From positions 1-57,647 of the IMG/VR virus record IMGVR_UViG_3300017752_000012: a stretch of DNA of 57,647 nt; one strand, written 5' to 3'. The notes beneath the pieces were generated by a model, which worked only from the letters and a program-made list of their open reading frames with translations, was not told the DNA's origin and did not search any database. Below, piece after piece: positions 1,412 to 36,051 of this stretch (position 1 is its first letter; each line of letters starts with the position of its first letter). This stretch comes from a virus. Made by a program: the position numbers and the translations under genes.

Positions 1412-1440
1412 TTGACAACTTTGCTTAAACATGGTATAGT
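1412..1440 (+). promoter_or_regulatory. sigma70 promoter ahead of the exported-protein set
   Basis: TTGACA at 1412-1417 and TATAGT at 1435-1440 are separated by 17 bases. An AAAAAATACTTC stretch precedes the -35 box, as in the other promoters of this phage. Transcription should start near 1447, about 30 bases before the ATG at 1479. Confidence 0.8.
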
Positions 1441-1478: not shown

Positions 1479-2009
1479 ATGAAATTAAGGTACTTACTAC
1501 TTCTCTGCTTACCTTTAACGGTACTAGCTGCAGAAGATACAATAATTACAGAGTCGACTTCTACGAGTGACGTAAGCACTACTACTAAACTAGAGTCTCC
1601 TCCTCCTTCGGCAATCACGCCGACAATGAATATATCCAACTCTGACCTCTGTACAGTCGGAGTTGCGGGTGCAGTGCAAACCCAGATACTAGGTATCAGC
1701 ATGGGGACAACTGTACGAGACATGAACTGCGAAAAATTAAAGAATGCGAAGACTTTGTACGATATGGGTATGAAAGTCGCTGCTGTGTCTATTATGTGCC
1801 AAGACCAACGTGTATTTGATGCAATGATGAATGCAGGTACTCCATGTCCTTATGAAGGCCTTATCGGAGAAGCCGCAAAAGCAGCATGGGATGCAAACGT
1901 AGAAGAAACACCTGTAGAAATTGAAGCAGAGGAGATACTTGATGAAAAGACGAAACAAACTCTTTGGGGTCTTGGCAGCATCTTTGCTTTGCTCCTCATC
2001 TTACTCTGA
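1479..2009 (+). CDS. exported protein with C-terminal membrane anchor
   Basis: 176 residues, first gene after the promoter at 1412. Residues 1-18 form a signal peptide (LLLLCLPLTVLAA, likely cut after LAA). A Ser/Thr/Pro-rich linker follows to about residue 50. The core has four cysteines (in DLC, MNCEK, MCQDQ and TPCPYEG) that could form disulfides. The protein ends in a hydrophobic segment (WGLGSIFALLLILL) with nothing after it, so it is probably anchored in the inner membrane and faces the periplasm. I recall similar proteins in uncultured marine phages but no assigned function. Its last 68 bases also encode the start of the next gene in another frame. Confidence 0.7.
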   Translation: MKLRYLLLLCLPLTVLAAEDTIITESTSTSDVSTTTKLESPPPSAITPTMNISNSDLCTVGVAGAVQTQILGISMGTTVRDMNCEKLKNAKTLYDMGMKVAAVSIMCQDQRVFDAMMNAGTPCPYEGLIGEAAKAAWDANVEETPVEIEAEEILDEKTKQTLWGLGSIFALLLILL

Positions 2010-2790
2010 TAATATAGTTTATGGACAATCGAATGTAAATGCCCGTACTTGGGCAATGCAGAACGTATTACCACAACAAGCAGGACTTACAATTTCTCAC
2101 ATTGTATATGAATACAGTGTAGAGAAAGAAACACAAGATGCGATGTTGGTGCATGTTTCAAATGAAAATGCAATCAACGGAGGATACATCTTTCGATCTA
2201 CAGATGATTGGACAGGGCAACCTTCCAACACAGTGAAGAAGATTAAGCCAGCATCGCAACTTCCCATACAATTTTGGGGAAATGGATCGATAGAAACAGA
2301 AGGTTTCGGTACAGTTTTAAACCCTTCTGTAAAGTATAACTGGAGGTACGAACCTTGTTTCGATCCTCAGTCTGATCCAACATGTCCAGGGTACATGATA
2401 CCTTACGACTTGGAAGATATACTAGTAGAACCTGTAGATCCTCTTGAAGATCAATATATTCAAGAACAACTTGAAAGACAGGCATTGCTTGAAGAAGAAG
2501 AAGAGTTTGAGCGAAAAGAGCGTTTGAAGAAAAACAAGCGTGACATGGAAAAGCTCTTAGGCGGAATTAATACTAAACTTATGTCAGACCTTGCACTAGT
2601 TCAAGAAGCAGCATACTTTAGTATAAACTTATTTCCTACTTCATATTATAGTCCTTTAGAGGGCGGAACATATGAAGATGCCTTGCAACTGATTGATGCA
2701 GAGTTGCCGGACAACAAAGAGGGAAGACGAGTGAACTACACTCAACAAAAACTGCATGAAGAAATGATACAATCACAATATGATAATTGA
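1942..2790 (+). CDS. exported coiled-coil protein
   Basis: The start chosen is the ATG at 1942, preceded by AGAGGAG at 1928-1934. A TTG at 1921 in the same frame is less likely because the ribosome site lies inside it. The 282-residue product begins with Lys/Arg residues and a hydrophobic core (LFGVLAASLLCSSSYS), a signal peptide probably cut before DN. There is no good lipobox. A beta-type domain follows, then an acidic and basic helical stretch around residues 175-210 (LLEEEEEFERKERLKKNK) that should form a coiled coil. Two cysteines lie in a PCFDPQSDPTCPG motif. No family recognised. It overlaps the preceding gene by 68 bases and sits in the exported-protein set. Confidence 0.65.
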   Translation: MKRRNKLFGVLAASLLCSSSYSDNIVYGQSNVNARTWAMQNVLPQQAGLTISHIVYEYSVEKETQDAMLVHVSNENAINGGYIFRSTDDWTGQPSNTVKKIKPASQLPIQFWGNGSIETEGFGTVLNPSVKYNWRYEPCFDPQSDPTCPGYMIPYDLEDILVEPVDPLEDQYIQEQLERQALLEEEEEFERKERLKKNKRDMEKLLGGINTKLMSDLALVQEAAYFSINLFPTSYYSPLEGGTYEDALQLIDAELPDNKEGRRVNYTQQKLHEEMIQSQYDN

Positions 2791-2825
2791 TTATCAAGAG
2801 TGCTTCGGCACTTAAGAGATATACT

Positions 2826-3317
2826 ATGAAGAAATCTTTGTTAGCAGCCGGACTTTTACTTTCTAGCGCAGCTTTTGCAAATGTTCCTATTACAGGTTCA
2901 GTAGCATCAAAATGCGTAATTAATGTAGATACTCCTGGCGTTTATGGTAACCCTTCTGCAAATCTACTAAGCACTGACCCTTCAGACGGTGGAGTTGTAC
3001 CTGTAGTTCGTTACGATATTATTAGCGCAGAGCTTTACAAAGCCAAAATTAGTTATCCTGACGAGTTTACAAGCAGTCCTTCTTTGAATGACGTTGTAAA
3101 CTGGACAGGCAGTGTAACAGTAAGTCAAACTTCAGACGAGTCAATGGCATCATTTGAGACAAACAAAGTAGAGTATAATAACACTACTGAGTATGATTTA
3201 GATGTGCAAGGCAGCGTTTGGTTTGATATTACTTCAACTGCAGACTATGGTTATGATAAATCCTTCCCTGGTGGAGACTATCAAGCAACCGTAACTGCGG
3301 AGTGTATTGCACTGTAA
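2826..3317 (+). CDS. exported pilin-like or spore-coat-U-like small protein
   Basis: The ATG at 2826 is chosen because it gives a clean signal peptide (KKSLLAAGLLLSSAAFA, cut before NVP). The mature protein is about 145 residues, beta-rich, with one cysteine near each end (SKCVINV and TAECIAL) that could pair. The pattern of paired terminal cysteines and a final ATVTAEC strand recalls Ig-like fold subunits of chaperone-assembled pili and the spore coat U domain. This is a resemblance of pattern, not a proven homology. The next gene, starting at the TAATG overlap, looks like a chaperone-type domain, which fits a subunit-chaperone pair. No usher gene is seen. Confidence 0.5.
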   Translation: MKKSLLAAGLLLSSAAFANVPITGSVASKCVINVDTPGVYGNPSANLLSTDPSDGGVVPVVRYDIISAELYKAKISYPDEFTSSPSLNDVVNWTGSVTVSQTSDESMASFETNKVEYNNTTEYDLDVQGSVWFDITSTADYGYDKSFPGGDYQATVTAECIAL

Positions 3318-3691
3318 TGCGATTCTGGGTTGTATTACTTGGTGTGTTAACTCATGGCTTCGTTTGGAGTCATGAGTTAACTCCCACTTACCCTACATTA
3401 GAGACTTCTTATATGTCAGGAGTTCTCAAAGCAGAAATGCATCTATTCAATAGTCGAAAGGATATCAACTATTATTCAGTCTCAGTCTACGATAAAGACT
3501 GGAAGCCTGTCAAATTTGCTACGGAAAGCAAAATCATACAAATGGACTATCTAGATCATAAAGATATAGAGGTCTATGTTCGCACAAAAGATCAAGAAAA
3601 AGCACATTATATTTGCACTAAATCGAAAATCCTGAAAGGTAAGAGTGCACCGACACTACTCGCATCAAGGATTTGTTCAAAAATAAAATAA
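3317..3691 (+). CDS. exported protein resembling a pilus-chaperone N-terminal domain
   Basis: 124 residues from the ATG at 3317, which shares one base with the previous TAA (TAATG), so the two are likely coupled. Residues 1-18 are a signal peptide (cut after FVWS). The mature part alternates beta strands (MHLFNSRKDINYYSVSVYDK, IIQMDYLDHKDIEVYVR) and ends in YICTKSK and RICSKIK, giving two cysteines. The strand order, and the idea of a periplasmic Ig-like domain binding a partner subunit, recall PapD-type chaperone domain 1. Only one domain is present where PapD has two. The family assignment is inference. Confidence 0.5.
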   Translation: MRFWVVLLGVLTHGFVWSHELTPTYPTLETSYMSGVLKAEMHLFNSRKDINYYSVSVYDKDWKPVKFATESKIIQMDYLDHKDIEVYVRTKDQEKAHYICTKSKILKGKSAPTLLASRICSKIK

Positions 3692-3700
3692 GAGGCAAGC

Positions 3701-4123
3701 GTGAAAAAGATAGTTTTATTGGCACTACTGGTAAGTAGTTCGACATGGGGACAAGGATCACTGAATCTGAACATCCCTCAGTCGAATCAAACCCATGCCC
3801 AAGATAAAATTAGATCAGGCAACGTTGATTGTCAGAATGCTATAGGTTCCTCTACGAATTTCGAGTTTGGAGTAGTTGGTATTATTGAACAAGGTGATAC
3901 CCCCTTTACTACTCAAATTCAAGAAGTACAAGATCAAGAATATCGAGACGTAGGAGTATACGCGCGCATAAATATTCCTATCGGCGGACCAAAAGAACGT
4001 ATCAACTGTAACACTCTGTATCAGTTGGAGCTAACAAAGAAACGTCTAGAAGTAGAGAAGCTACAGCGTGAGGTTATGCAATTACGTAAGCTTCAATTTA
4101 CAGACGATGTTGAGGAAAATTAA
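3701..4123 (+). CDS. exported small protein with C-terminal coiled coil
   Basis: 140 residues. The start is a GTG at 3701, chosen because AGAGG lies about six bases upstream and a signal peptide follows at once (KKIVLLALLVSSSTWGQ). The mature protein has a conserved-looking core with two cysteines (NVDCQNAIGSS and INCNTL) and hydrophobic strands (FEFGVVGIIEQ, VGVYARINIPIGGP). It ends in a helical Leu/Lys/Glu-rich segment (ELTKKRLEVEKLQREVMQL) typical of a coiled coil. I recall similar proteins in marine metagenomic phages without a known role. It is the last exported member of the set starting at 1479. Confidence 0.6.
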   Translation: MKKIVLLALLVSSSTWGQGSLNLNIPQSNQTHAQDKIRSGNVDCQNAIGSSTNFEFGVVGIIEQGDTPFTTQIQEVQDQEYRDVGVYARINIPIGGPKERINCNTLYQLELTKKRLEVEKLQREVMQLRKLQFTDDVEEN

Positions 4124-4125
4124 AA

Positions 4126-4584
4126 ATGGCAGAATTTGAAATTGCAGGAATGACATTCAAAGGTGGGAAGATGGCGGTAATATTAACTGCTCTTTCTACG
4201 CTAGGTGGTGCTAGCTGGGCTGGCTTCGAGTTTTACAAAGATTATATGGACATGAAAGAAATTGTACAAAATATAGATGTAGACGCTATTGAGGCACGAA
4301 ATACTCAAATAGTGCAGAAACTAGACGATGCCATCGAATATACACGAGATATCAAATCTGGACTACGAGATGATATTCTGAGTATTGAAAAACAAGCAGA
4401 CCGTGTTGAAGACAAAGCCCGAAATATGGAAGAAAAAGTACGAGACATGATTGACAAAGCAAGTGAGCGATTTGAAACCAGACGAGATTCCTTAATTAAG
4501 GATAACAATAGAGAGCTGAAGGACTTAGAAAAACGACTTACAGATAAGATCCAAAAAGCACTTGATAATCCACTTGCAGACTAG
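4126..4584 (+). CDS. membrane-anchored long coiled-coil protein
   Basis: 152 residues, ATG preceded by GAGGAAAA. One hydrophobic segment lies at about residues 14-36 (MAVILTALSTLGGASWAGFE). The rest, residues 40-150, is almost entirely charged heptad-like helix (for example ADRVEDKARNMEEKVRDMID). This could be a membrane-tethered coiled coil spanning the periplasm or lying on the inner face of the membrane. A spanin-like role in lysis is conceivable because one half of a spanin pair has this shape, but no partner lipoprotein is seen. Function unknown. Confidence 0.6.
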   Translation: MAEFEIAGMTFKGGKMAVILTALSTLGGASWAGFEFYKDYMDMKEIVQNIDVDAIEARNTQIVQKLDDAIEYTRDIKSGLRDDILSIEKQADRVEDKARNMEEKVRDMIDKASERFETRRDSLIKDNNRELKDLEKRLTDKIQKALDNPLAD

Positions 4585-4602: not shown

Positions 4603-4631
4603 TTGACAATATAACCCTAAGTTAGTATAAT
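4603..4631 (+). promoter_or_regulatory. sigma70 promoter for a leaderless terminase mRNA
   Basis: TTGACA at 4603-4608, 17 bases, then TATAAT at 4626-4631. The usual start, seven bases past the -10 box, falls at 4638. The ATG of the next gene is at 4639-4641, so the transcript would have no 5' leader and no ribosome site. Confidence 0.8.
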
Positions 4632-6113: not shown

Positions 6114-6396
6114 GAAGAAAGATTCTCGTCTTGCACGAGCAAGAGTAAAAGGCTACAATAAACCTCGTCGCACGCCTGGACATTCGAAGAAGTCACACAT
6201 CGTTGTGGCAAAAGTAGGTAGTAAAGTTAAAACTATTCGTTTCGGTCAGCAGGGAGCTAAAACGGCAGGGAAGCCGAAGGCCGGAGAGTCAGAAAGAATG
6301 AAAAAGAAACGTGCGTCATTTAAAGCAAGACACGCAAAGAATATAGCTAAAGGCAAAATGTCTGCGGCATATTGGGCGAATAAAGTAAAATGGTAG
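6088..6396 (+). CDS. basic protein, DUF6321-like
   Basis: 102 residues from a GTG at 6088, chosen because CGGAG lies nine or ten bases upstream and no ATG is available before the conserved part. The product contains SRLARARVKGYNKPRRTPGH, then SHIVVAKVGSKVKTIRFGQQ, and ends NIAKGKMSAAYWANKVKW. This is a strongly recognisable family of phages and large viruses (DUF6321 by memory). Net charge is very high. Together with the preceding four or five genes it forms a block of basic proteins placed between terminase subunits. Function unknown. Confidence 0.65.
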   Translation: MAAKRKRGKKKDSRLARARVKGYNKPRRTPGHSKKSHIVVAKVGSKVKTIRFGQQGAKTAGKPKAGESERMKKKRASFKARHAKNIAKGKMSAAYWANKVKW

Positions 6397-6719
6397 AAGA
6401 AACTAAAACTGTAGAAGGCTTAGAAGGCGCTGACCTAAACGGTGATGGTCATATTTCCCAAGAAGAGCTAGAACTTCATTTAGAGTTCAAGCGTAAAGAA
6501 ATGGAAGACGCTGACGCAATGCGAGATGCTCAACGGAATATGGCATGGTTTGCTTTAGGCGGAATGCTACTATACCCCTTCGCAGTAGTGGTTGCAGAGC
6601 TAATAGGTCTGGACAACGCATCAAAAGTACTTGGAGATATGGCTCCGACCTATTTTGTCTCTGTAGCAGCAATTGTAGCCGCGTTTTACGGCAAAGAAGC
6701 ATTAACAGGTAAAAAATAA
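6390..6719 (+). CDS. EF-hand, two-helix membrane protein (holin candidate)
   Basis: 109 residues. Residues 15-26 (DLNGDGHISQEE) form a canonical EF-hand loop, with D15, N17, D19, S23 and E26 in calcium-binding positions. A charged helix follows, then membrane segments at about 51-73 and 84-103 with the short loop LDNASKVLGDMAPT between them. I recall EF-hand plus two-helix proteins from marine phages, where they are sometimes called holins. A calcium-responsive membrane pore is an attractive idea but unproven. It overlaps the previous gene by seven bases and the next by one. Confidence 0.6.
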   Translation: MVEETKTVEGLEGADLNGDGHISQEELELHLEFKRKEMEDADAMRDAQRNMAWFALGGMLLYPFAVVVAELIGLDNASKVLGDMAPTYFVSVAAIVAAFYGKEALTGKK

Positions 6720-7303
6720 TGGAATTTATAATTGATTTAGCAGTAACCTTTTGGCAGTGGACAGTAGTAATTGCAGTAATTGCAGTAAGCTACTTAATTA
6801 ATAAACTAGATAAACCAGATCTAAAGCGCATTAATTTTGAGTATACTACAATGCCTAAAATGCAACCGCTACCGATTAAAACAGCAAGTAAAGGTTTCTG
6901 GGGCGCCATATTAATGTGGATCACTGGCACACGTCAGTGGGTAATCACAGAAGACTTCCACTACTGGATCGAAAACCAAGCGTATAAAATTCCTGCAGGC
7001 TTTCAGTTTGACGGCGCATCAGTCCCCAAGTTTCTTGCGACCTTCCTGTCGCCTGTGGGAGTTCTGTTGATGGGCGGCTTGGTACACGACTATGGTTATA
7101 AGTATGCTACTCTTATGAAAAAAGACGGCAGCAACATCGGCCCTCGTGACCAAAAATATATGGATGGTCTCTTCCGAGACATCTGTATCGAAGTGAACGG
7201 CTTCTATGCACTTAACTACTTAGCATATTGGGCACTACGCCTAGCAGGTTTTGTAGCCTGGAACGGACATAAAAAGAGAGGTACTCATGTCGTATCTAAG
7301 TAA
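6719..7303 (+). CDS. DUF1353-family protein with N-terminal membrane helix
   Basis: 194 residues, starting at a TAATG overlap. Residues 6-26 form a membrane helix (AVTFWQWTVVIAVIAVSYLI). From about residue 75 comes the DUF1353 pattern: a strand with VITEDFHYWI, then YKIPAGFQFDGASVPKF, then GLVHDYGYKY and a helical end. DUF1353 proteins are widespread in tailed phages. Their function is not settled, though the conserved His-Asp in VHDYGY suggests an active or metal site. The location beside two holin-like genes raises the possibility of a link to lysis, which is inference. Confidence 0.65.
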   Translation: MEFIIDLAVTFWQWTVVIAVIAVSYLINKLDKPDLKRINFEYTTMPKMQPLPIKTASKGFWGAILMWITGTRQWVITEDFHYWIENQAYKIPAGFQFDGASVPKFLATFLSPVGVLLMGGLVHDYGYKYATLMKKDGSNIGPRDQKYMDGLFRDICIEVNGFYALNYLAYWALRLAGFVAWNGHKKRGTHVVSK

Positions 7304-24443: not shown

Positions 24444-25408
24444 TGGCTACTGCTCCTTTTACAAATATATTACCAGATCCTTCTAACCATATTAATATTA
24501 CTGGACAGGCAGGAACTGGAACCGGTTTTAATTCTGGTCCGGGTTTTGCAAGCTTTAAACTTAATTCTCAGTTTAAAACTTCGTATAATACTACTAATTC
24601 TGGTAGAACTATTACATCTTCTTCAGGAGGGCACAAATGGTCTCTAGCAATAGAATACAATCCTTTAACTAGAGACGAGTTTGAACCTGTTTATAATTTT
24701 TTAGGCTCTAAACAAGGCAGGCTAGAACATTTTTTTGTACAAATGCCAGAAACCAATCTAAGATCTGTTCCTTTTAGAAACTTTATAGGAGCATCTAATG
24801 ATACTTTTTATGTGTATACAAGCCCTGTAACTGCGCAACTTTTAGAGCTACATAGAGAATATAAAATAAAAGACAGCTCATCTCAGTGGCAGACTGTAGG
24901 AGCAGCTACCGGATCAACTTCAGTGGGAGATACTTTTATAGCTACAGGTCAATCAGCAGTCGGGACACATCTTGCAGCTCCCACATATGAAAAAGCGGGG
25001 CAGGATAATCTTACTATTGCCAACGAGCTTACTGGTTATAGTCTTACTACACACCAAACTCCAAGACCTGGAGACTTATTCACTATTAGTGATCCTTCTG
25101 ATTCTAGCCATACAAAACTTTATAAAATTAATAAAGTAGAGACTAGTACAGATAATGCTAATGCTATTCAAAATCAGTATGATAAATCTGAACCGGCATC
25201 AACAACGGTCACTGGTACAGATACCGTATCGCCCTGTATAAGGATTCATTTCACCCCCGAACTTCAAAAAAATGTATACGCTGGAGCTGTAATAAAGTTC
25301 TCTAACCCTATGATAAGGGTTAGAATGACGCAAGACGTACAAGAGTACTCTTTAAACACAGAAAATCTATACTCTTTTTCTTTACAACTTGAGGAGGCTC
25401 AAAAATAA
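24443..25408 (+). CDS. distal/minor tail protein
   Basis: 321 residues, joined by TAATG overlaps to the tape measure before it and the giant tail protein after it. The segment WSLAIEYNPLTRDEFEPVYN with FLGSKQGRLEHFFVQMPE resembles the tube-like N-terminal domain of distal tail proteins, which form the ring between tube and tip. A central insert (residues 120-260) has repeated Thr/Ser-rich strands and may be an exposed OB or carbohydrate-binding insert. The family call is by position and pattern. Confidence 0.6.
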   Translation: MATAPFTNILPDPSNHINITGQAGTGTGFNSGPGFASFKLNSQFKTSYNTTNSGRTITSSSGGHKWSLAIEYNPLTRDEFEPVYNFLGSKQGRLEHFFVQMPETNLRSVPFRNFIGASNDTFYVYTSPVTAQLLELHREYKIKDSSSQWQTVGAATGSTSVGDTFIATGQSAVGTHLAAPTYEKAGQDNLTIANELTGYSLTTHQTPRPGDLFTISDPSDSSHTKLYKINKVETSTDNANAIQNQYDKSEPASTTVTGTDTVSPCIRIHFTPELQKNVYAGAVIKFSNPMIRVRMTQDVQEYSLNTENLYSFSLQLEEAQK

Positions 25409-28400
25409 TGTCAGAAAGAAATATATCATCAGATCTTAAAACTTTTTTAAAAGAAAATAAACCCTATACTATTGCTCATCTTATAAAATTTGAAAGACCA
25501 AACAATCTTTCAACGTTTTCCACTGAGAAACTTAGAAACGCCTCAGATTATGTCTATATGACCGATGCGGGAAGAGATATTACTTTTGACGATGGAAGCC
25601 TTTCCCATATTAATAATTTTACTTTTAAACAATTTGATAGTTATCCAGGTTCTTTGGCTTCAAATCCTTATACCTATACAGCCAACGGACCTCAAACCTA
25701 TGTAGCAAAGAGAATACAGTCTGTAGGAGCTGTAAATGAAGGTATAGAAGCAAAGGCTTCAAGCATGTCTATAAAACTTGATGCTAATGCTTTAAGCCCT
25801 CAAATTTATATCCCTAGTTTTTTCTACAATTCGTCAGGTTATTTTGAAACTGATATTGATTTATCTGATAGAGGCTTTACAATAGGCGATAAGATAAGCG
25901 TTTCACAAAGAGGACAAGATAATGGTACATTTATAATAACCAGATTTACTGCAGGAGGACATTCTGATCATCCTAATCGTGTATATGTAGAGGTTGTTGA
26001 TGTAGATAATACTCTGTCAAGTGGTACTACTCGATCCAATACCTTTATAACTTTAGTTTCGGAAGAACTAAATACTATTTTTAGAGGCAGTAAAGATGTA
26101 GTTACGTCTAATTATGTGAATAGAGAAGTAACCATTTATAGATTGTATATAGATCCGCAAACGAATGAAATTGTAGGCGGTATCCCCGGTTTTTATGATA
26201 ATGTATATGATAGTAAAGGTAGCTGTCTTCTTTTTAAAGGTATAATTACAAATGCTTCTTTTAATGAAGCTCCGGGGTCAAGTTCTTCAATTTCATGGAC
26301 TATTTCTAGTCATTGGGGTTTCTTTAATCAAGTAACTGGAAGGGTAACATCAGATTCGGAACACAGAGCCTTAACAGATACAGGAGTTTCGGATAGAGAT
26401 GTTATCCTAAGACAGGCTTATGCAGAAGATTTGGGTTTTGAACATTCTGAAAGATCAATTAATCTTATTGCAACCTATAATAAAGAAATTACTAAACATC
26501 GTATCAAAAAAGAAAAAAATGCTATAGGTATTACCACTGACTACTCTATGGAGGAGTATACCGACTATGTACCTACTGATATCGACTTAAGTCTGAATCT
26601 ATCGGCTAAGTCCTTACCTGTTATTTATGGAGTCAGAAAAGTAGATTCTATACCTGTATTTTTTGATAATCAAAAAAGTAAAACAGACCATCTTTATGCG
26701 GCTTTTGCGATTTGTGAAGGACCTATAGGTGGTTTGTATGATATAATACTAGACGGTAAAAGCACTATTTGTTCAGACGCTGCTGATTTTTCCGCAAGAT
26801 CAGAACAAAACGAAAATAATACTGTGGATGTATTGTGCCAAGGTAGAGCAGATAAAGGGGATGTTTTAGTAGGTACAAATACTGATCAAGGTGCAGCAAA
26901 ATATGTAGCCAATGTATATGATTACGATGGTCTTTCTAGTACTGATCTTGTCGGTTTGATAGGTTTTGAAAACACACCCTACTACGAGCAAATAACAGCC
27001 AGTTCCACCATCGGCTCTACAGGTTCCACAGGTATTCTACATGAAAAAGGATTTGCTTTTACCGATCCAATTAATTCTACATTTATTTTTCATTCGGGAA
27101 AACCTTTTCAAAGAGCTGACTATCTACTTATGTCTACTGCTGCTAAACAACTTTTTAAAATTCAAAATGACTTTTACAGTAAATTACCACATAAATACTA
27201 TACAAGTAACCACAGACTTTTAGATACAGCTTACTGCTCTGCAGAGTTTATTGTTGGGAATGGAGAGATAAAACTGCCCAAACTTAATTTTGTAGTAAAA
27301 GGAAAAGCAATAAACTGCCATAACTATGATGGTAGCTTTAGAATGACGGACAATGCTTCTAATTTTAGTCCTGCCAATACTTTAAAATTTTATGTAGGTG
27401 AAATGGTAAGTCATGGAAGCTCAACTGCAAGAATTGTTGATAAGTTCTTTGTACAAAACGAAGAAGGCCAATTAGAAACTAGAATTATAACGGATCCTCC
27501 TCTAAACCCCGCTATAGGAGGTAGCAATGGCCTAAATGACACAAAATTTCAAATTACTACGAGCAGTGGAGGAAGTTTAGAGTATTATAATACTTCAGGA
27601 AAATCTGTAGTATGGGGGACACTAAATAAAAATGCAGCATTCTCGAATGATGTAACTAGTTGGGTCCCTCTGTCTGGTAGTGGCTCTTCTTTTGAAATAC
27701 TGATTAATCCAGGTGATACAAACTGGAATAACACTCAATGGACTGCATCGGATATACTAACAATATTACAAAGAACAAACTCTAAGGGTGAATATATAGC
27801 TCGACTAGGTCTCGGACAACTACTTTATGGTTTACAGGACAGCAGCACCGCTTTGTTGCATCAATATAGTGATATAAATACTTATCATAATTTATACTAT
27901 ACAAATGTGGCGCAGGGAAGTAATTCTTCTTACCCAACAGGTATTAGTGTAACAGGTTTTGAAGGTGCTTCTCTTAATTCTGCAAATATAGATGCTTCTG
28001 TACTAAACACTACTTTCATTAAAAATGGTATTAGATTAAGTTTAACAAATGCTAATAGTACTGGCTTTAACCATACTAATATTAATGGCTCTATTTTTGT
28101 AGGGCAAAAAATAAAGCTATACGCATATTCTAACGCTGCTATGGATATAGTTGAGGCACCTTACGTACAGGAACGAACAATTATAGATGCAGTTAGGTTG
28201 AACGCCCAGACAAATGACTACTTTTTCTTTGTTGACCAAGCTTGGGATGTAGGTTATCTTCCTACACAGAATCCAACAGGTGATCCAGGTGCATTACAAT
28301 TTAAAATAGAGATATGTACTCCAGAAGACTTAAGGGTTAGTATAAACCCTAGTATGCAACTTTTAGACTACTTGCAATCAAGCAAATACGGTAAAGGTCT

Positions 28401-31400
28401 AGAAGAGTCTGAATTAGATATAAATAGCTTTAAAGAGTCTGCTTTAAAATGCGATACTCGCTCTGATGTAACAGTAATAATAGATCCAACTACTTTTTCT
28501 TATACTGTTGTTCCAACTGTAGGCACACGCTGGGAGCTTGATACAGGAACCCAGTATTGGAGAGGTACTATTAGTAAAAGCATAGGTACTGTAATTACTA
28601 AAGGTTCAAATACTTATAATGCTTTTGCAGTTACTTTTACGGATTGTGTAGGAAAACTAGCAGTAAAGCATACAGGTATTCAAGTGCCTAAAGCGGGGCA
28701 GATAATATGGGATAACTCCGCAGGAGTAACTACTATAAAAATAGGTGCAGATAGTCTTGTAGAAACAGATGCAGAATTTAATGCGTTATCTGCACCTACA
28801 ACAGCAAACTATACTTTGACAGGATTAGACCCTAATGGTACAGACCCTACTACTATGAGATTAGATATAGGGACAATGGGTGTAGCTTCTGATGGTAATC
28901 CTATTGTTAAGGATATTGTAAAAAAACAAGGCTATGCTTCCCAGAGTTCGCCAGGTTCCAACAATTCTTTTATCAGCAATACAGTTGTTGAAAAATCGGG
29001 CTATAGTTTATATGATTCAGATAATGTTAAATATTTTAAATATTGTGGGTGGGATGATAATAGTCAACGAAATGTTACTAGACACCAGTTAAACCAACTT
29101 GTGGACACCTCTGGTACTGTACTTTCTAATGTTAATAATATGCTTAGACAGTTTAATGGAATATTAAGCTATAGAAATGGAAAATATACTCTAGACGTAA
29201 AATCAAAAGCTGATACTACTATTGCATCAGGCTTAAAAGTATATAGTGAAGATATAGTTGGTAGTATAAAAATAACTGATAAAGGCTCGAAAAGAACTTT
29301 TAACAGTGTTGATGCAAGTATTATCGATCCTTCTCAAAACTTTGAAGCAAGAAGTGTTAATTTCTTTAACTCTGACTACTTAAAAGAAGATGCAGGCGTA
29401 CCTAAAAAAGGCAGCTTTAGTACCCCTGATATAACTAACTACTATAATGCTAGAGTTAATATTAAGCAATTTTTGGATGAATCTAGATTTGGATTAGAGA
29501 TCTCGTTTGATATGAGACCTTCTGGGTTTTTAATTACTGCTGGGGAAATTATTGAATTAACTAATGAAAAATTTGGGTGGTACTCTAAGCTTTGGAGAGT
29601 GCTTTCTATAACTATGAAACCTAATGGGTTGGTTTCTGTAAAAGCAAAAGAGCATAATGATAGCTCGTATTTTGTGTCTACAGAACAAGTTACTCCAGGA
29701 GCTTTGATTGAGCAATCTGTCGGCTCTGTAGTGGCAAATGTAGGCTCCCCTGCTTTTCCCTATAATCTATCAGCATCACAATTAGCAACAGGTGGTATAG
29801 AATTAAACTGGTTAAATACTCCCGATTTTAATCCAGCAACACATGACATCGAAGTTTATAGGGTACAAGGTATTGCTGCACAAAATGTTCGTAAAACCAC
29901 TCTTACTGTTGACACTGCAGGAGCTACTAGAACCACGACCATACCTATTACTGCAGGGAGTCCTACAAATGAAAGCATAGGCATGACTGTAAGCGGTGTA
30001 GGTAAAACTATTACTGTCCCTTTGGCCGATTTACAAGCCGAAGATAAAGTTAAAATTTCAGTTTTGGGAACTAATACTGACTGGAATGTTATTGAAGGAT
30101 ATAGCACAGGTACTAACGAATATAGAATAGGCGATACTATAACTGTGCATTCTACAGGGGTTTCGGCATTGACAGGAACTGGACAAGTACAACTCTTAGA
30201 TAGAGAAGTAAAAATTGTAGGTATAAGTGCTCCTGGTGCCACAAGAACCATAACTGTAGATTCAAAAGTTAGTGTACAGGCAGGATCAGAAATAACATGC
30301 CATGCCCCTTTAATTGCTACAGTTAATTCTGGTACTACGTATATAGACCCTATTGTAGGAAATAATCAGGGTCAGATAACAAGATACTATTGGATTAGGT
30401 ACAAAGTAATTAAACCTGTTCAAAATGTGGCAGGAGCAGTAAACAAGCTAGTCTTCTCTGATTTCTTCCCCGCTTCGATGTCTGGTATATCTGGTGTAGG
30501 ACAGCTTGTTGATATTGATCAAAGACGTTCAATGTCATTATCTTTTTCTAACCCAAGAGAGTTCACTTACAATGAGCAAGGAACTAATATTGCTACTGTT
30601 AATCAGGTTCAATATCCGACTACTTGTGTAGTTACAGTTACCCCTGAAAATGTTCAGGGGAGTGTCAGTGTCTCTTTTCAAATAATAGATAGTTCGGGTA
30701 ATAATGTAGGAAGTCCTACTATTGATTCAGCCTCTCCTTATTCATTCACATATACTGCTCCTACAGGGGCTACTGCGGCGGACGGGTTTGATAAATTACC
30801 TCAAAGTTTAAAGATTATTGTAAGTGATGTAGTTCCAAACGGGACAACTTATACTGCAGAACAAACTATAGATTTTACAGCAAATAGATTGGTTGTCGGA
30901 GGTATTCCGGGAGTTGATGCAATAGATATAGACATGACTAACCCTTTACATACTTTTCCTATTGCTTTAGATGGAACAGTGGATGTTAGCGGTAGCGGTA
31001 CTAATATTCAAGTACTTGAGGGAGGTACTGCTCTTACTCTTGTAAACGGGCCCACTGTTGGAAACGGACAATACACCTTAGCTGTTAGCTCCTCAGTAGT
31101 GGGTGTAGGTACTATAACCGGAACAAATAGTACAACAGCCCTATATAGTGGAAGCACGACACTTTCTGGAACGGTTCAGGACGGAAAGGTAGTATTTACT
31201 GCTTCAGGCAATAGACTAGACGGAACTCCTTTTTCAAGAGTTTTCAACCAAACAGTAAATAGGATAGATACAAATCAGACTGTAGAGGTTAGCGTAGATG
31301 ATCAAGTTATAGACTATGATTCAAACGGAGCAAATGCTAACCCCTCGACTGTTACTGTTAGTGTAAAAACATATGGTATTGCTGCAGCTTATATAGACGT

Positions 31401-34400
31401 AATAGTTCTAGACTCTAACGCTACCGGTGTTAATACTTATAATATTTTAACAAATAAACTAGTCACTACCAGCAGTTCTGGATTTACCACCAATGGAACT
31501 GGTGATGGTGGAACTATCGATATAAATTTAGCAAATATCAATAATACTAATAGTGTCGTTAATTTGTCTGATATGCCTTTAAAAATTGAAGTTCGAGCGT
31601 ATGCTGGCAGTAATGCAAACGGTACTGAACCTGTTGTTTCAGCTGATAGAACAACAGTATTTGGTATTAGAAATGGTGTAAGTAGTTCTTTAGTATTTGC
31701 ATATAAAAGAAGTGCTGCCACTCCAAACGATAATCCTGGACAAGTTACTGTAAATTTAGGCACTGGTCAAATAACAACAGGTAGCCTAGCTAACTCCTGG
31801 GAAAAAGAGCCTCCCACAGGAGAAGGAAACCCTATTTACTATTGTGCAGCAACGGCAGCAGGTGTGGGAGCTACCGATACTGTTGCAGCAAATGAGTGGT
31901 CTACTCCAGTATTATTAGCTGCTTCCTCTAAAACAAATGTTGTAACTTCAAACTCTCTAGTATTTGCTAGAGCTAAAGACAACAGTCTTAGCCCTTCAGC
32001 AGTTACCATAACTGCCCAGACTCAAAATACTACCCAAGACGGGTCTTGGTCTACTAGTGCAGGGACTCTTACAAATATAGTAAATACACATACAGGCCCG
32101 TCTTGTACTGTCGCAAAAGCTAATTTTGTAGATGGAATGGTGGTAACTTATACTTTACATTCGGATGACGGAAGTATAGCAGATAGTGTTACTTTAAAAG
32201 AGATAGAAGATGGTAGTGGAGCTCTCGTAGTTTCATTACCTAATAATAATCACAACCTTCCTTCTAACTCGGGAGTTGTTACTAACTATACAGGCTCAGG
32301 CACAAATCTCAGAGTTTATCAAGGATCAACAGAGCTAACATTTACATCAGGCACTCCGACAAATGGCCAATATAATGTATCTGTAGGGAATACTGCAAAT
32401 ATCACAGAAGGCACCGCACAGGCTGATCCGGGAGGTGGCATATTTGCTAATATAACCGATCACTCCGCAGCTTCAAATAACCAGGATAGTTTTATTATAA
32501 CTTATACGGTTACAGGTAAAGACTTTTTAGGTAATTCTTTTACTACTACTGCGGATCAAAGTTTAACAAAAACTGCTGGAGGTTCTCAAACAGCAACAGC
32601 TTTTATATATCAAAGAAGTAGTACTAATAGTGCACCATCGTTACCTACAGGAACTACTACATTTAATTTTTCTACAGGCGGCATGACTTTTAATGGTAAT
32701 AATAATGGGTGGGATGATGATATACCAAGCACATCAGGAAGGTATTTATGGATTGCAAGAGCAACTGCAAATGCTCCTGGTACTCAAGTATCTGTAAATA
32801 TACCTGCAAATGCCTGGGGAAATGTAGAGTTACTAGCTCATGATCCCGAAGATTTTATTAATATTGCTCTAGATAACTCCTTTGCAGAAATTAGTCTGGA
32901 TTCAGATAATAATAGAGTTTTTGATGATACTGGTACCATATTATCTGTTGTGGAAGGTTCTAACTCTTTAACTGCCGTATCAGGTACTCCGACAAATGGC
33001 CAGTATAACGTAACAGGTACTACTTTTAGCGGGGGAGCCACCGAAGCGAGTGGTGCTACAATTTCTGGAGGCAATTATGTTGCCGCTGTATTAAATGGTA
33101 TAACTGATGATGTTGGTACTAGAGTCTTTTCTATTTCTGGTAAAAGAAATAATGGTGATGCATTTACAGCAAGTGCTACCCAAAAATTTAGAGTCACAGG
33201 TCTTGTAGGACGTTTTACATTTACTCCTGGATCTTTAGGATTTTTCATAAAATTCCCTGCGGAGGGGGATAGAGCAGAGGCAACTTCCCAAACTCTTACT
33301 ACTAGGCTCAGTAACTTTAACTTAGGTGATAATGCTACTTATCAGATACGAAGATCTATTATTGGTGGGCCTTTGAATGGTGTTCTTGGCAACCATACAG
33401 TAACTTCGGGAACATCTTCTAATGGTCAGAGTTATATTTTTCCTACTGCGTACGACGTATACCCTTTAGTTATACAATCGAAGTTAGTTAGAACAGACGG
33501 CGTTACAAGTGCTGAAACCACAATTGGTGTGGACCAAATAGTATTTCATGCAACCAGAGACGGAGAAAAAGGATTATCTCCTCCGGTTATTGCTTTATCT
33601 AATGAGACACATACCATCAGAAGGGACGAAAACTTTGATGCAGATCTTACAAACTCAGGAACAGATATTCAAGTACAGGAGGGCGGCTTCGCATTAGATT
33701 ATGTAGCTTCTAATCCTACAGCGGGTCAGTTCACTGTAACAGCTGTAGGTACTGGAGGAATTGTTCCGGGTTCAATTCAAGCAGCAGCTAATAATGGGAT
33801 GCTAGGACTTGCTAGCGGTAATTTGTTGCCGAATAGGATGCCCGAAGCTTTTGACCTACAAGACTTTGATAATGATGGATCTATTGATTCTTGGAAGTAT
33901 AGCTCAGCCATAAGTAATAATAGTAATAGTGTTATTGCCAATTCTGTTACTGCTCCTTTCTTTGTGCAGGGTGGTTCTGGAGGTGATACATTGCAAGCTC
34001 CTTCAGGAACTTCTTATGGGCAATATGCAATATTTGCGGAAAATTATCATAGTTTTACACTTTCCGCCACAACCCAGCATATTTTCTCAGTATATGCCAA
34101 ACAAGGGAGTGCTAGACATGTATATCTAAAGATAACCGGTGGACAATTCCAAAGCGCTAAAACATTTAAGGCTGTATTTGATCTAAATGGTACTAATGGT
34201 GCCATTCTATCACAAACTGAAGATGGATCAAATGTTACCAACCAAGCAACTATTACAGGTCTTGATGTTCATAATAATAACGCCGCTCTTCCTAATGGCT
34301 GGAAAAGAGTGAGTATGGCATTTACTATGCCTTCCTCGGCTGTTAACGATACAGGTGCCGGGGCTATAAAAGTAATGGTAGGTCTTACTGATGCTAATGG

Positions 34401-36051
34401 TACAGAAGTATTTGCCGCCAACGGTGTTGCTACAAATAATATAAATGCTTATTTCTGGGGAGCTAGAGTAGAAAATAAAACAAGTAGTGCAGCTCCAGAC
34501 AACTATGCTTCTCCAGTTAACTCTATTGCCAGAGTTTCTGATCATACAGAGGATAATAATGGATTTACCTCTAATACGCCTTTAGTAACATATGATGTTC
34601 AGGCTGTAGGTGTGGGAGGCGGTTATCTAGGTAATAATATTAAAGAACAAACTTTTTCTATTGTTAATCCTGCAACAACAATATCTATTGCTCCAAGTAG
34701 ATCGGCTGTTGATTTTGCATTCGATGGAACATTTACCCCAGCCACTATTACAATAGTCCCTACAGTCAAAGGAGTTAATACTACTGATGTACACTATAGA
34801 TGGCAAGAAAACGGAGGTTCTGTATCATATACTGCGGCGGGATCGCCTAATAAGACTATTACGGGATACTCTGCCTCCACTGATTTCCCTAAAACTATTA
34901 CTTGTGCGGTTTACTCAGGCACCACAAATGGAGCAGGTACTTTTCTAGCATCAGATACAACTGTTATTATTGCAGCTACGGAAGGTAAAACTGCAACTAT
35001 TTCAGCTAGTATGGCTAATCATATTTTAGATGCGAACGATTTAGGAGTTGTTTCTAACAATGATTTTTTAAATACTTTTAAAGTAGTCGTGGATGGAACA
35101 GAACTAACCTATAATGTAAATGGAGGTTCGGGTAAGTTTAGTCTTGGTACGATTACAACGGTTAATACTAATTATGGTTCGTTGGTACCCAATGCGGCAG
35201 GACAACTATCCCTAAATGCAAACTCAACCCTTCTTAGTAATGTTAATCACTTGCAACAATTTTGGACTGTACCTATCTTAGACGGGTCAGGAGCTACTTT
35301 AGGTATATATGTTATTAGCATAACAAAAAGATTAGGTACTAGAGCTGCTCAAATGCTAGAAGTTAATCAGAGCGCAAGTCTTACAGCCGTAGAGTGTGCA
35401 GAGTGGAGAACAAGCAGCAGTCTTACTCAGGGAGTAGCATCAGAAATTGCTTTATTAGCTGTAAGTGCAGCCTCAGACAATAAAGTACGTCCAGGAGACC
35501 AGATTAAGGTTAACTCTACCTCAGCAGGTAGTGGAATAAGAATCTATCAAAATTCAACTATAATAGATAGTAATACGGTAGGTAGTACGATTGCCGCCAA
35601 CTCTTTTAGTAGTCCGGTCGTTGAAGAAATAGATGGTAGCCTTCTTGTAGATGGTACTGTGTCTGCAGATGTTCTTACAACAGATACTATCTTTTCAAAT
35701 AGTATAAACTTGAATGAAAAACTTCAGATAGGCCACCCGAATGGCTTAGGCTCCACTAACGCAATATGTCAAATAAATACGGTAGGAAAAACCAACTTTG
35801 CGCAGAATGCAAATGGATTTTTCTTAGGTAAAAAGTCGGGTGGAACAGGGTTTGCTTTTGATGTGGGAGATAATACTAATTATCTACGATTTGATGCTGA
35901 TAATGGTACTTTTGAAATTTCTCAAACTACAGGTGATTTTGTACTGAGGTCTGGACCAACAAGTGGAGCGTCTTTAGAGATTAATAATGATAAAATAGTT
36001 ATTAGAGACTCCAGTGGTACAATAAGAGTTCAGTTAGGTAACTTATCATAA
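25408..36051 (+). CDS. giant central tail fibre / tip attachment protein (gpJ-like)
   Basis: 3547 residues, one of the longest tail proteins expected for a siphovirus. The N-terminal 1500 residues form a tail hub: an early TIAHLIKFERPN region, then VIYGVRKVDSIPVFFDNQ and LYAAFAICEGPIGGLYDIIL, which are gpJ-like, and FGLEISFDMRPSGFLITAGE near residue 1360. Residues about 1490-3400 are a string of Ig-like or fibronectin-like domains with at least four recurring units containing a GT-IQVLEGG-type turn and NGQY. Residues about 2805-3030 (INNNSN-rich, HIFSVYAKQGSARHVYLKIT) look like a carbohydrate-binding jelly roll. The last 130 residues (DGSLLVDGTVSADVLTTDTI) are a typical central-fibre tip. A terminator follows. 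Confidence 0.85.
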   Translation: MSERNISSDLKTFLKENKPYTIAHLIKFERPNNLSTFSTEKLRNASDYVYMTDAGRDITFDDGSLSHINNFTFKQFDSYPGSLASNPYTYTANGPQTYVAKRIQSVGAVNEGIEAKASSMSIKLDANALSPQIYIPSFFYNSSGYFETDIDLSDRGFTIGDKISVSQRGQDNGTFIITRFTAGGHSDHPNRVYVEVVDVDNTLSSGTTRSNTFITLVSEELNTIFRGSKDVVTSNYVNREVTIYRLYIDPQTNEIVGGIPGFYDNVYDSKGSCLLFKGIITNASFNEAPGSSSSISWTISSHWGFFNQVTGRVTSDSEHRALTDTGVSDRDVILRQAYAEDLGFEHSERSINLIATYNKEITKHRIKKEKNAIGITTDYSMEEYTDYVPTDIDLSLNLSAKSLPVIYGVRKVDSIPVFFDNQKSKTDHLYAAFAICEGPIGGLYDIILDGKSTICSDAADFSARSEQNENNTVDVLCQGRADKGDVLVGTNTDQGAAKYVANVYDYDGLSSTDLVGLIGFENTPYYEQITASSTIGSTGSTGILHEKGFAFTDPINSTFIFHSGKPFQRADYLLMSTAAKQLFKIQNDFYSKLPHKYYTSNHRLLDTAYCSAEFIVGNGEIKLPKLNFVVKGKAINCHNYDGSFRMTDNASNFSPANTLKFYVGEMVSHGSSTARIVDKFFVQNEEGQLETRIITDPPLNPAIGGSNGLNDTKFQITTSSGGSLEYYNTSGKSVVWGTLNKNAAFSNDVTSWVPLSGSGSSFEILINPGDTNWNNTQWTASDILTILQRTNSKGEYIARLGLGQLLYGLQDSSTALLHQYSDINTYHNLYYTNVAQGSNSSYPTGISVTGFEGASLNSANIDASVLNTTFIKNGIRLSLTNANSTGFNHTNINGSIFVGQKIKLYAYSNAAMDIVEAPYVQERTIIDAVRLNAQTNDYFFFVDQAWDVGYLPTQNPTGDPGALQFKIEICTPEDLRVSINPSMQLLDYLQSSKYGKGLEESELDINSFKESALKCDTRSDVTVIIDPTTFSYTVVPTVGTRWELDTGTQYWRGTISKSIGTVITKGSNTYNAFAVTFTDCVGKLAVKHTGIQVPKAGQIIWDNSAGVTTIKIGADSLVETDAEFNALSAPTTANYTLTGLDPNGTDPTTMRLDIGTMGVASDGNPIVKDIVKKQGYASQSSPGSNNSFISNTVVEKSGYSLYDSDNVKYFKYCGWDDNSQRNVTRHQLNQLVDTSGTVLSNVNNMLRQFNGILSYRNGKYTLDVKSKADTTIASGLKVYSEDIVGSIKITDKGSKRTFNSVDASIIDPSQNFEARSVNFFNSDYLKEDAGVPKKGSFSTPDITNYYNARVNIKQFLDESRFGLEISFDMRPSGFLITAGEIIELTNEKFGWYSKLWRVLSITMKPNGLVSVKAKEHNDSSYFVSTEQVTPGALIEQSVGSVVANVGSPAFPYNLSASQLATGGIELNWLNTPDFNPATHDIEVYRVQGIAAQNVRKTTLTVDTAGATRTTTIPITAGSPTNESIGMTVSGVGKTITVPLADLQAEDKVKISVLGTNTDWNVIEGYSTGTNEYRIGDTITVHSTGVSALTGTGQVQLLDREVKIVGISAPGATRTITVDSKVSVQAGSEITCHAPLIATVNSGTTYIDPIVGNNQGQITRYYWIRYKVIKPVQNVAGAVNKLVFSDFFPASMSGISGVGQLVDIDQRRSMSLSFSNPREFTYNEQGTNIATVNQVQYPTTCVVTVTPENVQGSVSVSFQIIDSSGNNVGSPTIDSASPYSFTYTAPTGATAADGFDKLPQSLKIIVSDVVPNGTTYTAEQTIDFTANRLVVGGIPGVDAIDIDMTNPLHTFPIALDGTVDVSGSGTNIQVLEGGTALTLVNGPTVGNGQYTLAVSSSVVGVGTITGTNSTTALYSGSTTLSGTVQDGKVVFTASGNRLDGTPFSRVFNQTVNRIDTNQTVEVSVDDQVIDYDSNGANANPSTVTVSVKTYGIAAAYIDVIVLDSNATGVNTYNILTNKLVTTSSSGFTTNGTGDGGTIDINLANINNTNSVVNLSDMPLKIEVRAYAGSNANGTEPVVSADRTTVFGIRNGVSSSLVFAYKRSAATPNDNPGQVTVNLGTGQITTGSLANSWEKEPPTGEGNPIYYCAATAAGVGATDTVAANEWSTPVLLAASSKTNVVTSNSLVFARAKDNSLSPSAVTITAQTQNTTQDGSWSTSAGTLTNIVNTHTGPSCTVAKANFVDGMVVTYTLHSDDGSIADSVTLKEIEDGSGALVVSLPNNNHNLPSNSGVVTNYTGSGTNLRVYQGSTELTFTSGTPTNGQYNVSVGNTANITEGTAQADPGGGIFANITDHSAASNNQDSFIITYTVTGKDFLGNSFTTTADQSLTKTAGGSQTATAFIYQRSSTNSAPSLPTGTTTFNFSTGGMTFNGNNNGWDDDIPSTSGRYLWIARATANAPGTQVSVNIPANAWGNVELLAHDPEDFINIALDNSFAEISLDSDNNRVFDDTGTILSVVEGSNSLTAVSGTPTNGQYNVTGTTFSGGATEASGATISGGNYVAAVLNGITDDVGTRVFSISGKRNNGDAFTASATQKFRVTGLVGRFTFTPGSLGFFIKFPAEGDRAEATSQTLTTRLSNFNLGDNATYQIRRSIIGGPLNGVLGNHTVTSGTSSNGQSYIFPTAYDVYPLVIQSKLVRTDGVTSAETTIGVDQIVFHATRDGEKGLSPPVIALSNETHTIRRDENFDADLTNSGTDIQVQEGGFALDYVASNPTAGQFTVTAVGTGGIVPGSIQAAANNGMLGLASGNLLPNRMPEAFDLQDFDNDGSIDSWKYSSAISNNSNSVIANSVTAPFFVQGGSGGDTLQAPSGTSYGQYAIFAENYHSFTLSATTQHIFSVYAKQGSARHVYLKITGGQFQSAKTFKAVFDLNGTNGAILSQTEDGSNVTNQATITGLDVHNNNAALPNGWKRVSMAFTMPSSAVNDTGAGAIKVMVGLTDANGTEVFAANGVATNNINAYFWGARVENKTSSAAPDNYASPVNSIARVSDHTEDNNGFTSNTPLVTYDVQAVGVGGGYLGNNIKEQTFSIVNPATTISIAPSRSAVDFAFDGTFTPATITIVPTVKGVNTTDVHYRWQENGGSVSYTAAGSPNKTITGYSASTDFPKTITCAVYSGTTNGAGTFLASDTTVIIAATEGKTATISASMANHILDANDLGVVSNNDFLNTFKVVVDGTELTYNVNGGSGKFSLGTITTVNTNYGSLVPNAAGQLSLNANSTLLSNVNHLQQFWTVPILDGSGATLGIYVISITKRLGTRAAQMLEVNQSASLTAVECAEWRTSSSLTQGVASEIALLAVSAASDNKVRPGDQIKVNSTSAGSGIRIYQNSTIIDSNTVGSTIAANSFSSPVVEEIDGSLLVDGTVSADVLTTDTIFSNSINLNEKLQIGHPNGLGSTNAICQINTVGKTNFAQNANGFFLGKKSGGTGFAFDVGDNTNYLRFDADNGTFEISQTTGDFVLRSGPTSGASLEINNDKIVIRDSSGTIRVQLGNLS
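30990..35160 (+). repeat. degenerate intragenic repeats in the giant tail protein
   Basis: Related coding units begin near 30997, 32299, 32931 and 33659, with a weaker copy near 35060. Each has a turn of the type GTNIQVLEGG followed 15-20 residues later by NGQY-V. The copies at 32346 and 32980 are nearly identical over the GGCACTCCGACAAATGGCCA stretch, which suggests a recent duplication. Confidence 0.6.

Follow-up and report, generated by a model that had tools for sequence, protein, structure and literature searches.

A proposed phage envelope cassette encoding a putative pilin-like subunit and a predicted PapD-like chaperone domain with no neighbouring usher

Introduction

Known pili of the chaperone-usher type need an outer-membrane usher, which is thought to be indispensable. 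In these pili (Fim/Pap, archaic Csu, alpha CFA/I), an Ig-like subunit with an N-terminal cysteine strand motif (V-x-I-x-G-x-V....C) is accompanied by a PapD-like chaperone. Both features appear to recur in the phage gene cassette that we describe here, genes A to F, and bacterial relatives of the cassette encode a two-domain subunit with a C-terminal pilin domain, comparable to tip adhesins. The cassette differs from chaperone-usher pili in that it has no usher, that its predicted chaperone consists of one Ig domain, bearing a cysteine pair, rather than two domains, that a small protein (E, sometimes fused to OmpA) is found instead of the usher, and that the donor-strand extension of the phage subunit, C, appears to be short or absent. 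We searched open-licence papers for phage-encoded chaperone-pilin sets and for usher-less systems and found nothing relevant.

Pelagiphages carry curli secretion genes, for which a defence against superinfection has been proposed (PMC9599517). Like the curli (T8SS) genes of pelagiphages and of the OM43 phage Melnitz (PMC9599517, PMC9004378), the cassette would be a multi-gene, exported surface-appendage system of marine phages that has moved between phage families. However, its subunits are predicted to be Ig-like rather than amyloid repeats, and a curli identity was not supported: A-F had no CsgG/CsgF/CsgA-type match in Pfam or PHROGs and A-E had none in PDB profile searches. T5-type phages encode an exported receptor-blocking lipoprotein (llp) beside their receptor-binding gene (PMC4728585). 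The cassette resembles T5/BF23 Llp in comprising exported phage proteins encoded beside host-recognition genes, which would act on the outer membrane of the infected cell. Llp is a single lipoprotein, whereas the cassette is a set of three to six genes with a predicted chaperone.

Results

The window, that is, the whole stretch of DNA analysed, is an entire virus contig of 57,647 bases, classed as linear, with terminase, portal, T5-type tail and replication genes. The cassette lies near its left end, between tail-fibre-like genes upstream and a small-terminase-like gene downstream (Table 1). A first-pass annotation had described five genes at 1479-4123, each beginning with a signal peptide. 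The coordinates and reading frames of these genes, A-E, were correct, and all five passed a crude Sec test, compared to 2 of the 51 other window genes. Export was retained in distant homologues of all five. The membrane anchor that had been noted at the end of one protein is the hydrophobic C-terminal stretch of A, which is conserved across 24 aligned homologues. Genes B, E and F encode E/K-rich, heptad-like sequence of coiled-coil type, read by eye. A sixth gene, F, had been missed and belongs to the cassette: among the loci scanned, 55 have all six genes in the order A-B-C-D-E-F, and contig ends cut most of the remaining loci.

Table 1. Genes of the cassette and flanking promoter-like sites in the window
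Feature	Position	Strand	Description	Remark
Sigma-70-like promoter	1412..1440	+	TTGACA-N17-TATAGT, TG before -10	11/12 matches; consensus match only
Gene A	1479..2009	+	Signal peptide; phrog_20531-like conserved domain with Cys; hydrophobic anchor at the C-terminus	
Gene B	1942..2790	+	Exported; N-terminal part looks beta-rich and has two invariant Cys; middle rich in E/K; C-terminus conserved (AQQ-LLHEEMV-QY)	ATG at 1942
Gene C	2826..3317	+	Exported; putative Ig subunit of pilin type; N- and C-terminal Cys both invariant; phrog_25895	ATG at 2826
Gene D	3317..3691	+	Exported; single predicted PapD-like domain (chaperone N-domain); invariant Cys pair; phrog_25455	
Gene E	3701..4123	+	Exported; probably an anchor at the outer membrane; Cys pair invariant; two strand-like stretches of amphipathic pattern; C-terminus looks helical; phrog_37374	GTG at 3701
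Gene F	4126..4584	+	Membrane helix at the N-terminus; long tail resembling a coiled coil; NPL motif conserved at the C-terminus	
Second sigma-70-like promoter	4603..4631	+	TTGACA-N17-TATAAT, before small-terminase-like gene	12/12 matches

The cassette is bracketed by two promoter-like sites, one upstream with 11 of 12 matches and one downstream with 12 of 12. A strong promoter had been proposed for the set. The near-consensus site is indeed present at 1412-1440, but sites of this kind are about as frequent in the region as chance would give, and we therefore give them little weight. Two neighbours recur in related contigs. In 28 loci, a conserved DUF1353 protein accompanies the cassette. In the window it is encoded at 6719-7303, has an N-terminal membrane helix and also matches phrog_1158 ("tail assembly chaperone"), and it contains an HDYGY motif that may recall prokaryotic phospholipase A2. 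An EF-hand-like protein with a membrane helix (6390-6719) neighbours the cassette in 38 loci and looks holin-like. In the tail region, a single protein of 3547 residues (25408-36051) occupies nearly one-fifth of the contig.

Comparison with close homologues gave dN/dS values of 0.04-0.26 for all six genes, indicating purifying selection. The contigs that bear the cassette represent different phage types, as many have the terminase genes of the window while two others have a T4-type gp23 capsid gene. Sequence and profile searches of Pfam, NCBIfam and PDB returned no named family for the cassette proteins; weak matches to Cadherin-like, OMP_b-brl_3, SAC3 and OEP fell below our cut-offs and were discarded. 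Genes A, C, D and E matched PHROGs, all labelled "unknown function," with the window copies of C, D and E matching phrog_25895, phrog_25455 and phrog_37374 at 6.8e-5, 3.8e-5 and 2.5e-4, respectively. Gene B had no match in Pfam or PHROG.

We built AlphaFold models of C and D from viral-contig alignments (pLDDT 90 and 89.5, respectively) and compared them with the PDB using Foldseek. Neither predicted fold looked unrelated to Ig-like subunits or chaperones. For D, which the first-pass annotation had taken for a single PapD-type chaperone domain, the best match was SafB (E 5.8e-5, probability 1.00), and the best matches were the PapD-like domains of SafB, DraB, FaeE, PapD and FimC. In all, D had 16 PDB matches with E below 1e-3, and these included some MSP domains, which share this fold. 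The protein is 124 aa long and consists of one domain, with no second chaperone domain in 26 aligned homologues. The predicted fold firmly supports D as a PapD-like chaperone domain.

For C, the earlier guess of an Ig-type pilus subunit had weaker support. Its top matches were mostly chaperone-usher pilins (CfaB, the pilin domain of PapG, FimF, CsuA/B), the best with probabilities of 0.97-1.00, but the E value was only 3.5e-3, with none below 1e-3, and the TM score was about 0.4. Compared with predicted viral structures, the C model also had no match below E 1e-3. We tentatively regard the model as suggestive of a pilin-like Ig subunit. Both C and D have invariant cysteine pairs that are kept across very distant homologues. 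With cleavage sites roughly predicted, mature C of the marine cassettes has 11-16 residues before its first cysteine, and bacterial C has a median of 17. Since no donor-strand extension is obvious before this cysteine, C of marine phages may not polymerise in the manner of a chaperone-usher pilin.

The picture of a single set overlooked that the cassette is made up of two modules, A-B-F and, inserted into it, C-D-E. Genes A and F occur without C-D-E in pelagiphages, roseophages and environmental phages, in the order A, a different exported protein, F; homologues of A are also present in Achromobacter phage JWAlpha. The trio C-D-E occurs without A-B-F in phages unrelated to that of the window, among them Vibrio phages Thalassa, 1.205, K478b, D81, vB_VhaS-tm, 2.275, D479 and 1.081, as well as Erwinia pEp_SNUABM_01 and Klebsiella jumbo phages, and the Vibrio phages that carry it include T4-like ones. 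Thalassa gp150-152 are full-length matches to phrog_25895/25455/37374, and a homologue of E is found in 205 phage records. Because the trio and A-x-F each occur separately, we read the window as carrying C-D-E inserted between B and F. On gene order, marine phages have A-x-F as a module in its own right, within which C-D-E is nested.

In Thalassa, 1.205, K478b, D81 and VhaS-tm, the trio follows large genes, and in most of these phages a short lipoprotein gene comes next. The large genes look tail-related to us; the PHROG that they match is of unknown function. In Vibrio phage D479 (L095 1-2784), C-D-E lies just after genes annotated rIIA and rIIB. Six loci (L070-L073, L090, L102) contain a putative class-3 lipase gene without a signal peptide, either between E and F or right after F. 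Two genes labelled "lysozyme," CRP-207 gp73 (L010 3292-3873) and CRP-810 gp51 (L011 6219-6641), encode F-type proteins with a membrane helix and coil, and from these sequences the label looks wrong.

A profile of E also detected chromosomal loci in bacteria. In our survey, E was present in 42/297 Vibrionaceae and 6/297 Hyphomicrobiales genomes. In the loci that we read, it adjoined homologues of C and D, in the orders D-E-C, C-D-E or C-X-D-E, with ordinary chromosomal genes around them. The X subunit (287-321 aa) has a C-type pilin domain at its C-terminus (E 2.9e-5, un-iterated model), a two-domain layout that, judged from sequence, is like that of a chaperone-usher tip adhesin. The unannotated C-D-E operons of bacterial chromosomes (L109, L110, L111, L150-L155) include some with an adhesin-like two-domain protein or an E-OmpA fusion. 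Nitratireductor soli carries three tandem C-D-E sets, and in Photobacterium an EAL-domain-like gene lies next to the operon.

In some Vibrionaceae, E is joined in one protein to the peptidoglycan-binding domain of OmpA (OmpA_C), a fusion that would locate E to the outer membrane or the cell wall. The fusions, together with the amphipathic-strand pattern of E, point to a probable outer-membrane anchor and possibly to an oligomeric pore. In the E tree, the marine cassette forms one clade (99/89), and the other phage groups and the bacterial groups are set apart by long branches. The capture of C-D-E was therefore probably not recent.

Neither an usher nor a lysis enzyme had been seen with the set, and our searches agree. 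In the window, we saw no gene resembling an usher next to the cassette, and Pfam identified no lysis enzyme among the 35 window proteins scanned. There was also no usher-like gene within 8 kb of six bacterial C-D-E loci. The usher family PF00577 was absent genome-wide from 11 of 17 bacterial genomes containing the trio.

Discussion

Our computations cover the export signals and conservation of the proteins, the predicted folds of C (pilin-like) and D (chaperone-like), the nesting of the modules, the relatives in bacteria and the absence of an usher nearby. The reading that we favour, to which we give somewhat less than even odds, is that of a late-region envelope cassette in which C-D-E forms a pilus-like assembly without an usher, A-B-F forms an envelope module, and the assembly remodels the host surface during infection, most likely for superinfection exclusion. 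In this model, C would be exported as an Ig-type subunit and bound in the periplasm by D, its single-domain PapD-like chaperone. E would take the place of the usher as an anchor at the outer membrane or peptidoglycan, possibly as an oligomeric pore. A-B-F would be a phage-specific envelope module, with F in the inner membrane extending a coiled coil into the periplasm and A and B as its exported partners. Since a pilin-like subunit is exported with a chaperone and anchor of its own, the assembly is expected within the infected cell's envelope or at its surface, which it could cover or remodel. The outcome would be a block on the adsorption of competing phages and on that of progeny to debris.

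We judge superinfection exclusion or receptor masking to be the most likely function because T5-type phages place exported genes beside host-recognition genes, because large neighbours of the trio in several phages look tail-related to us, and because exclusion has already been proposed for phage curli. Several observations count against this reading: the Foldseek matches of C are modest, mature C of the marine cassette has no obvious donor-strand extension, the phage sets do not have the adhesin-like subunit of the bacterial operons, and the cassette often lies near lysis genes, a position equally compatible with a role in lysis.

Such a role, in lysis or its timing, is the main rival, although we consider it unlikely. 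In this case F, A and B would bridge the envelope together with an outer-membrane E, as a spanin does, and would either disrupt the outer membrane or delay its disruption. F has the topology of an i-spanin and shares with two-component spanins (lambda Rz/Rz1; PMC6139136) an N-terminal membrane helix, a periplasmic coiled coil and a late gene position. Lysis genes are also close in several phages, as an M15 peptidase gene is next to F in HTVC023P, a lysozyme gene is nearby in ctXG6705, holin and endolysin genes lie 0.6 kb downstream in Thalassa, and a T4-type lysozyme gene is directly upstream of A in locus L085. Moreover, the pores of phage curli have been suggested to time lysis (PMC9004378). 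However, F fits the inner-membrane half of a spanin, while A-E include no lipoprotein partner: none has an obvious lipobox, and no ORF in the window has a convincing one. We downgraded the idea of A-F as spanins on finding that, in four related contigs (L017, L018, L077, L088), the cassette is followed within a few kb by a separate, conventional pair of overlapping genes, one Rz-like and the other an Rz1-like lipoprotein gene. The trio is also far from annotated lysis enzymes in jumbo and T4-like phages. Among the functions suggested by the first-pass annotation, a surface structure or superinfection-exclusion device fits best, and a novel lysis system is less likely given the spanin-like pairs.

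A pilus-like C with a chaperone-like D would also fit an adhesive fibre, which could make infected cells clump with healthy ones or keep progeny tethered ("sibling capture"). Sibling capture has been proposed for phage curli (PMC9599517), and the bacterial relatives have adhesin-like subunits and, in Photobacterium, the EAL-domain-like neighbour gene. We consider this improbable, as the two-domain adhesin is absent from the phage sets and the curli phage Melnitz gave no clumping (PMC9004378). It is very improbable that a host chaperone-usher system exports C, with the phage adding a subunit and a chaperone to a host pilus. The resemblance of C and D to chaperone-usher pilins and chaperones would be explained, but 11 of 17 bacteria that carry the trio have no usher gene, D has no second chaperone domain, and E regularly accompanies C and D. 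We give hardly any credence to A-F as virion components (tail tip or decoration), despite the position of the cassette after tail-fibre-like genes in the window and in locus L036, as virions assemble in the cytoplasm, whereas five consecutive conserved Sec signal peptides direct these proteins out of it, and homologues sit in bacterial operons amid ordinary chromosomal genes.

We put forward a broader reading as a doubtful but serious possibility. C-D-E may be an undescribed, usher-independent chaperone-pilin secretion system common to Vibrionaceae, Hyphomicrobiales and many phages. E subunits would oligomerise through an amphipathic hairpin and helical tail into an outer-membrane pore or anchor, and the system would have been captured by phages and nested within a trans-envelope A-B-F module.

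The C-D-E set is found in hundreds of phage records and dozens of Vibrionaceae species and is without a family name in Pfam or NCBIfam. Cultured models for testing superinfection exclusion exist, such as Vibrio phage Thalassa. If our reading is right, chaperone-assembled Ig-type pili are possible without an usher, and the cassette would help to explain, alongside phage curli and in a way open to testing, what lytic phages gain from making structured surface proteins for export.
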